Source: Betaproteobacteria bacterium (GTDB lineage Bacteria; Pseudomonadota; Gammaproteobacteria; Burkholderiales; Usitatibacteraceae). From it: 34,596 bases of DNA. Made by a program: the position numbers and the translations under genes. The notes below the pieces were generated by a model, which had not been told where the DNA came from, made no database searches, and worked only from the letters and a program-made list of their open reading frames with translations. Shown here piece after piece: positions 15,826 through 21,697 of the stretch (position 1 is the stretch's first letter; every line of letters starts with the position of its first letter). The stretch spans positions 1-34,596 of the forward strand of contig JAGRPO010000199.1 of assembly GCA_019449455.1 (NCBI GenBank), given 5' to 3'.

Positions 15826-19530
<3,705 letters not shown>

Positions 19531-19551
19531 GGTTCGGCGGTTCCCGGAACG

Positions 19552-19582
19552 AAAAAAACCCGTCAGCGCGGCGACGGGTTTT
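19552..19582 (-). terminator. Intrinsic terminator in the metH leader (attenuator)
   Basis: On the minus strand AAAACCCGTC (19582-19573), an 8-base loop and GACGGGTTTT (19564-19555) form a perfect 10-bp stem; the Ts continue to 19552, giving seven in a row. It lies downstream of the aptamer and 21 bases before the metH ATG. No other minus-strand gene lies just upstream to need terminating, so it is best read as the expression platform of the riboswitch. Plus-strand transcripts would have only four Ts, so it is directional. Confidence 0.85.
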
Positions 19583-19585
19583 CGG

Positions 19586-19644
19586 ACCGGTCGCTTTAGC
19601 TGGATTTGTTGAGCGCCCGCAAGCTGTTCGATCAAATCGGCGCT
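19586..19644 (-). ncRNA. SAM-II riboswitch aptamer in the metH leader
   Basis: The minus strand carries stem AGCGCC (19644-19639) pairing with GGCGCT (19617-19612) around a loop that begins GATTTG and ends GCTTGCG. After the stem come exactly 11 bases of pattern xxAxAAATxxA and then GCTAAA (19600-19595). The crystallised metX SAM-II RNA, as I recall it, has the same layout: GC stem, GAUUU loop, 11-base xxAxAAAUxxA linker, GCUAAA. TCG in the loop can pair with CGA just after GCTAAAG, supplying the pseudoknot. SAM binding should promote the downstream terminator and lower MetH. SAM-II is best known from alphaproteobacteria. Confidence 0.85.
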
Positions 19645-19652
19645 AGGGCAAT

Positions 19653-19658
19653 ATCTTA
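19653..19658 (-). promoter_or_regulatory. Promoter -10 element of metH
   Basis: TAAGAT on the minus strand. A start site about seven bases downstream falls near 19646, one or two bases before the first riboswitch stem base, which is the expected arrangement. The -35 region (about 19676-19681) is GC-rich and weak. Confidence 0.6.
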
Positions 19659-19695
19659 CACCAGCCGGCCGGCCCCGCGCTCCGGGCAGGGCGGG

Positions 19696-19720
19696 CTTGA
19701 AATCCGCCCCGCCGGCATCA
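19696..19720 (+). promoter_or_regulatory. Candidate sigma32 (RpoH) promoter of htpG
   Basis: CTTGAAA at 19696-19702 is a perfect sigma32 -35 element. CGGCATCA at 19713-19720 is a partial match to the CCCCATnT -10, with a 10-base spacer, slightly short. The position before a heat-shock chaperone gene fits. The -35 lies in the loop of an inverted repeat, GGGCGG (19689-19694) and CCGCCC (19704-19709). Confidence 0.55.
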
Positions 19721-19762
19721 AGATTCGAGTTTTTCCGCCTCCCGATCGAGAAGGAACCGCCC

Positions 19763-21697
<1,935 letters not shown>

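Follow-up and report, generated by a model that had tools for sequence, protein, structure and literature searches.

The SAM-II riboswitch (RF00521, SAM_alpha; Corbino et al., 2005) usually has metA, metX, metY or metC as its target. In the description of its binding site (PMC3764141), the bases U10-U12, U20-C23 and G42-A47 are completely conserved, the triples G8-G42-C23, U11-A45-U21 and U12-A46-U20 are formed, and the adenine of SAM is contacted by U44. SAM-V (RF01826) has nearly the same pocket; there, U47 binds the adenine and U8 is bonded to U47 (PMC6061858). By our own mapping, these two bases correspond to U44 and U10 of SAM-II. A variety with long loops (RF01726) is listed as a form of SAM-II (PMC2864571).

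Bordetella bronchiseptica is listed with SAM-II in Corbino et al. (2005; PMC1273637), and SAM-II terminators in beta-Proteobacteria are mentioned by Barrick and Breaker (2007). A transcriptional expression platform of SAM-II was, in 2007, termed experimentally unestablished. According to the accessible part of Leyn et al. (2014; PMC4239095), finds of SAM_alpha were confined to the Rhizobiales and Rhodobacterales, and a metXZ element is reported as new from betaproteobacteria. The latter has six conserved blocks, of which 1 and 4 and likewise 2 and 6 pair as a pseudoknot, and a terminator follows. A further annotation of interest is Bp2_287 (RF02424), located in most genomes ahead of methionine genes (Khoo et al., 2012; PMC3521395) and equated with RIT77 of B. 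cenocepacia in a review (PMC10987360). Methionine synthase is little documented as a SAM-II target in the literature searched: in the portions of text retrieved for SAM-II together with methionine synthase the enzyme is named only in a reference, and the retrieved portion of PMC2704228 mentions metH only for SAM-V.

The locus studied here lies in a window of 34,596 nucleotides, this being the whole stretch of DNA analysed. A SAM-II riboswitch in front of metH had been proposed by a first-pass annotation made from the letters alone. The parts listed there (P1 arms, GATTTG, linker pattern, GCTAAA and TAAGAT) are all present on the minus strand at the positions given, and the element extends past the range then marked, through the terminator to the metH start codon. 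In the order of transcription the features are:

19653-19658, minus strand: -10-like hexamer TAAGAT, read from the sequence
19575-19653, minus strand: whole RF00521 SAM-II match, 38.9 bits (cut-off 36)
19639-19644, minus strand: P1 5' arm AGCGCC, read from the sequence
19633-19638, minus strand: L1 third strand GATTTG (G8 A9 U10 U11 U12, then G; numbering mapped from the available part of PMC3764141)
19619-19622, minus strand: P2 5' strand TTGC (U20 U21 G22 C23; pairs per the same source)
19612-19617, minus strand: P1 3' arm GGCGCT, read from the sequence
19601-19611, minus strand: L3 linker CAACAAATCCA, 11 bases, fitting xxAxAAATxxA
19595-19600, minus strand: P2 3' strand GCTAAA (G42-A47, SAM pocket per PMC3764141)
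19587-19594, minus strand: proposed antiterminator 5' strand GCGACcGG, continuing P2 (predicted fold and complementarity test over relatives)
19571-19578, minus strand: proposed antiterminator 3' strand CCcGTCGC, within the terminator 5' arm and loop
19552-19582, minus strand: intrinsic terminator AAAACCCGTC, 8-base loop, GACGGG and seven T, predicted at -16.5 kcal/mol
15826-19530, minus strand: metH, cobalamin-dependent methionine synthase, 1234 aa, full length

The architecture is that of SAM-II as described by Corbino et al. (2005), with P1, the L1 GAUUUG, the UUGC/GCUAAA pocket and an A-rich L3, a promoter-like box just before P1, a terminator ahead of the start codon and a methionine gene downstream. 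It departs from the usual arrangement in that this gene is metH. The ATG is found at 19530-19528 (minus strand), 64 bases downstream of GCTAAA, and the product was identified by NCBIfam NF007024 (2170.4 bits) and TIGR02082 (1740.8 bits), both above cut-off, which makes the element the leader of a methionine gene. The divergent upstream neighbour is htpG (HSP90), starting at 19763 on the plus strand. Transcription is predicted to start at about 19646, directly ahead of P1. No convincing -35 was seen by eye upstream of the TAAGAT box in the window leader; the other leaders of the genus carry TAAAAT or TAGAAT as -10 box (6/6).

In the window, the Rfam covariance model RF00521 gave an end-to-end match on the minus strand (E 1.7e-5) at only 2.9 bits over the curated cut-off. 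In the whole 3.48 Mb genome, where 150 of 300 first-look candidates were scored, the element is the sole RF00521 match at E≤0.001 (E 4.0e-7). When 19300-19900 was scanned with the Rfam models, the other SAM families, SAM-V (RF01826) and the long-loop form (RF01726) among them, gave no match up to E 10, and SAM-V was rejected as the identity of the element. The weak matches of tRNA-Sec, c4-a1b1 and asX2 lie far below their cut-offs. With RF00521 above cut-off, the pocket bases complete and the link between leader and metH conserved (see below), the original call is confirmed, and on its sequence the element is a genuine SAM-II riboswitch ahead of metH, a new member of an established family.

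All 13 of the completely conserved pocket bases (U10-U12, U20 U21 G22 C23, G42 C43 U44 A45 A46 A47) are found in the window. The strings ATTT, TTGC and GCTAAA are also kept in 15 metH-leader matches of R1, an order-trained model built from 32 elements of relatives including that of the window. The published triples, as given in the available part of PMC3764141, imply the pairs C23-G42, U21-A45 and U20-A46, between which a G22-C43 pair would lie. With this pair counted in, P2 in the window consists of TTGC (19622-19619) and GCtAA (19600-19596), i.e. UUGC with GC-U-AA. The first-pass annotation had suggested a pseudoknot of TCG with CGA. These letters are present and able to pair, but the published P2 pairing is a different one, and TCG/CGA was rejected as the pseudoknot. 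The CGA falls inside GCGAC, the proposed antiterminator strand.

Covarying stem pairs, which the first-pass annotation had recommended looking for, were found in P1, although not every measure exceeds its control. The alignment comprised 32 sequences chosen by a regular expression that fixes the letters of P2, which are complementary; conservation of P2 in these rows is therefore by construction. Two-sided changes occur in 3 of the 6 P1 pairs (11 cells), with a covariation score equalled by 6/500 shuffles, and 91.5% of the P1 and P2 cells are paired, a value equalled by 9/500. For further pair types the count does not exceed that of shuffles (387/500 reach it), and shifting the partners by -1 or +1 yields equally many two-sided pairs (3 and 4). 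Among 140 distinct elements (see below), the outermost P1 pair is standard in 97, taking six forms (CG, TG, AT, TA, GC, GT), and consists of unpaired letters in 43.

RF00521 matches 7 of the 8 genomes examined in the genus, each time before metH (for one of the loci, L008, this assignment was read by eye), and 4 of the 7 exceed the cut-off. The eighth genome, a 470-contig draft (G004), gave no RF00521 match. Using R1 at E≤0.001 on the best 80 of 594 MetH places, 14 of the 80 loci had a SAM-II element directly before metH, on its coding strand, and none had one outside the metH leader; a fifteenth leader matched at E 0.031. One of the 14 (L048) looks like the same contig as a training row (L003), so that 13 look independent. 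The hosts include Methyloversatilis, Propionivibrio, Undibacterium, Polynucleobacter, Noviherbaspirillum, Herminiimonas and Oxalicibacterium.

Across the order, R1 detected SAM-II in 230/300 genomes at E≤0.01 and RF00521 in 44/100 at E≤0.001, with 17/100 passing the cut-off; R1 was trained within the order, and the samples and thresholds of the two counts differ. The betaproteobacterial consensus, CAGCUUGC...GCUAAAGCG, differs from that of Rfam SAM-II and is scored poorly by the Rfam model. SAM-II is thus common and under-recognised in this bacterial order, and the window element is an ordinary member. The host had been taken for a betaproteobacterium, in agreement with the closest MetH among the matches listed, which is 90% identical and comes from 'Betaproteobacteria bacterium isolate FeB_7'. 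The accompanying view that such a case is unusual had to be abandoned given the presence of SAM-II in 230/300 genomes and the records of Bordetella bronchiseptica and beta-Proteobacteria already in print. Taken alone, the window element amounts to a routine annotation, a further SAM-II riboswitch whose target, methionine synthase, is less documented.

The set of 140 distinct elements was gathered with a regular expression forcing ATTT, CTTGC and GCTAA. It is a non-random sample, to which six metH cases came via the MetH search, and the downstream proteins were grouped into clusters, which were named by eye or after a single representative. The genes that follow are metZ/metY-like in 51 cases, metH in 27 (26 plus L008), metX in 24 and metK in 3. 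A small M[FY]DC protein, in three clusters, follows in 18, small or single clusters, one of them metN-like, in 15, and 2 elements have no usable frame behind them. The names metX and metN rest on what we take to be characteristic sequence features together with Pfam matches (Abhydrolase_1, ABC_tran).

The aptamer, by model and by letters, the gene, the terminator and the conservation are established. The best model for their operation, which we regard as very probable, is a SAM-triggered transcription OFF switch of metH in which the P2 3' strand serves as antiterminator; SAM binding by the window RNA, the OFF direction and the antiterminator are the parts that we infer. When SAM is plentiful, it would bind the pseudoknot, with L1 (GAUUUG) packed on the P2 helix UUGC/GC-U-AA. 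The bound pseudoknot would hold the GCUAAAGCGA strand, allowing the terminator at 19582-19552 to fold and RNA polymerase to halt ahead of metH. When SAM is scarce, the strand would be free and GCGACcGG could pair with CCcGUCGC in the terminator 5' arm and loop, blocking the terminator, and methionine synthase would be made. While SAM is bound, the bases next to this strand are taken up by P2, and the two states should therefore compete.

A terminator was called in 124/140 elements, several of the remainder being second aptamers of tandems. For the elements with a terminator, the energy of pairing with the terminator 5' arm and loop was computed for each of five 13-base aptamer segments and set against dinucleotide shuffles. 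Complementarity reaches p≤0.05 for the P2 3' strand in 42% of the 124 (mean z -1.66) and for the other four segments in 1-7%. In a non-redundant set the P2 3' strand was significant in 32/80 and the terminator 3' arm in 0. Within these 80, own pairs average -9.95 kcal/mol versus -9.28 for swapped ones; the difference is modest, and 0/5000 permutations attained the mean of the own pairs. The metH elements alone gave 29% of 14 non-redundant cases at p≤0.05. The pairing was not significant for the window element by itself (-8.4 kcal/mol, z -1.03); in its sister L004, the antiterminator comprises 7 uninterrupted pairs (z -3.38), and in L020 of the same genus both strands seem by eye to have changed together, yet z is +1.51. 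Folding of the window transcript up to just before the terminator 3' arm yields a structure containing GCGACcGG/CCcGUCGC. The minimum free energy fold of the full leader lacks P1; since pseudoknots are excluded from such folds, whole-leader folding is uninformative. The transcriptional SAM-II platform now has a specific antiterminator model, testable by mutation.

Antitermination by another strand of the SAM-II leader, or kinetic competition of the pseudoknot with the terminator and no dedicated antiterminator, would also accommodate the weak pairing in the window element (z -1.03). It is this absence of significance, together with the lowest mean duplex energy being that of the CAGCTTGC segment (-12.29 kcal/mol, as opposed to -10.39 for the P2 3' strand), that speaks for such an arrangement. 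Over composition-matched shuffles, however, enrichment is slight for the CAGCTTGC segment (7% at p≤0.05, mean z -0.48) and absent for the P1 3' arm (1%), while the P2 3' strand reaches 42%, and we consider this alternative unlikely. For the metXZ element, the available text of Leyn et al. (2014; PMC4239095) contains the speculation that its GC-rich regions 3 and 4 pair with the terminator. Such GC-rich regions were tested here as antiterminator and, being barely or not enriched over shuffles, were rejected. An OFF switch employing the P2 3' strand remains the preferred reading.

The modest Rfam score might also reflect a degenerate or decaying SAM-II copy without ligand response. This is very improbable: the pocket bases are retained, an element with -10-like box and terminator is found in 7/8 genomes of the genus, and the R1 score of 74.5 bits ranks third in the 300-genome list, the element itself having been part of R1 training. 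Slightly less probable still is that the other strand encodes the functional RNA, which would then be a small RNA of the Bp2_287 family. RF02424 does match the window at 19553-19673 on the plus strand, and Bp2_287 is described as an expressed sRNA by Khoo et al. (2012; PMC3521395) and in a table of a 2024 review (PMC10987360), as far as these texts were available. The match scores 25.8 bits, far below the family cut-off of 70. The above-cut-off matches in three genomes (203.9, 157.2 and 107.5 bits) are antisense to SAM-II in 3/3 cases and those below cut-off in 20/20, and the conserved letters are the SAM pocket letters of the other strand. An antisense sRNA as the functional strand was rejected on these grounds, in favour of the riboswitch.

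Bp2_287 and SAM-II thus share the same DNA in methionine-gene leaders and differ in that the former is annotated on the other strand as an sRNA gene; it seems that the Rfam family RF02424 has been annotated antisense to a riboswitch. Matches of RF02424 on the SAM-II reverse strand were recorded in the window (19553-19673, plus strand), L028-L047 and L219-L221. The metXZ element resembles the SAM-II of this order in its Burkholderiales hosts, in having metX and metZ downstream and in its SAM-II topology, whereas Leyn et al. (2014) report it as new; the comparison is one of the layout described in the available text, not of letters. Because this layout matches and because SAM-II precedes metX and metZ here, the metXZ element is presumably SAM-II. 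That the large comparative study saw SAM_alpha only in alphaproteobacteria may be due to RF00521 passing its cut-off in just 17/100 genomes of the order. We think it rather likely that SAM-II is a common methionine regulator of the order, acting on metH, metX, metZ, metN and metK, whose members are split among SAM_alpha, the metXZ element (as argued above) and Bp2_287/RIT77, with an apparently uncatalogued GAGUUA branch before metK in addition.

This branch came to light when R1 also recovered metK leaders carrying GAGTTA in place of GATTTG. The pattern GAGTTA-ACTTGC-GCTAAAGCG occurs in 54/300 genomes and 32/135 genera of the order, and the count of the reversed control pattern was 0 throughout the rows listed. 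Thirty loci were retrieved from the 54 genomes; 29 lie before metK and one before a small MYDC protein. The metK leaders noted with this variant, all in other genomes of the order, are L241-L269, L225, L229, L230, L232, L233, L235, L237 and L239. Its P1 covaries strongly: for 20 distinct sequences with a short linker, 0/500 shuffles equal the alignment in paired cells, in two-sided cells or in covariation score, and 60/500 do so in the number of pair types. With Rfam 15, the variant sites of 19 metK loci had no match up to E 1, and neither had 6 variant sites largely overlapping these 19. A literature search for a SAM-II variant of this kind found no paper. Masking of the Shine-Dalgarno sequence was rejected as expression platform, being significant (p≤0.05) in only 5/29 leaders. 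Judged by its letters, the variant is apparently an uncatalogued branch of SAM-II with G at the position mapped to U10, the base that braces U44, where the SAM adenine is bound. The variant may bind SAM via a rebuilt adenine triple, or it may have an altered ligand preference.

Several further elements were observed. The genome of the window holds a second SAM-II copy before metX (G000:C14:36670-36728, plus strand; L029, L217), which is divergent, has one extra L1 base (GAATTTG), scores 24.7 bits with RF00521 and was found by R1. In six loci of the same family, before metH (L035, L036) or metX (L040, L041, L042, L044), L3 contains an insertion of about 17-31 bases that is hairpin-like by eye, and none of the six genomes concerned was matched by RF00521. 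Tandem SAM-II, already published (PMC9481103), was seen in L005, L030, L133, L136, L139, L140, L147, L152, L187 and L195; the first aptamer has a terminator and the second lies near the small uncharacterised M[FY]DC protein, three examples of which were tested and had no Pfam match. A MetN-like ABC transporter ATPase is preceded by a SAM-II-like element (L037:1545-1597, plus strand) whose linker is very short (GGCGTAAAACAGCTAAAGCG). Elsewhere in the genome of the window, an SAH riboswitch (RF01057, 71.3 bits) is found at G000:C97:12884-12959 on the minus strand (L218).
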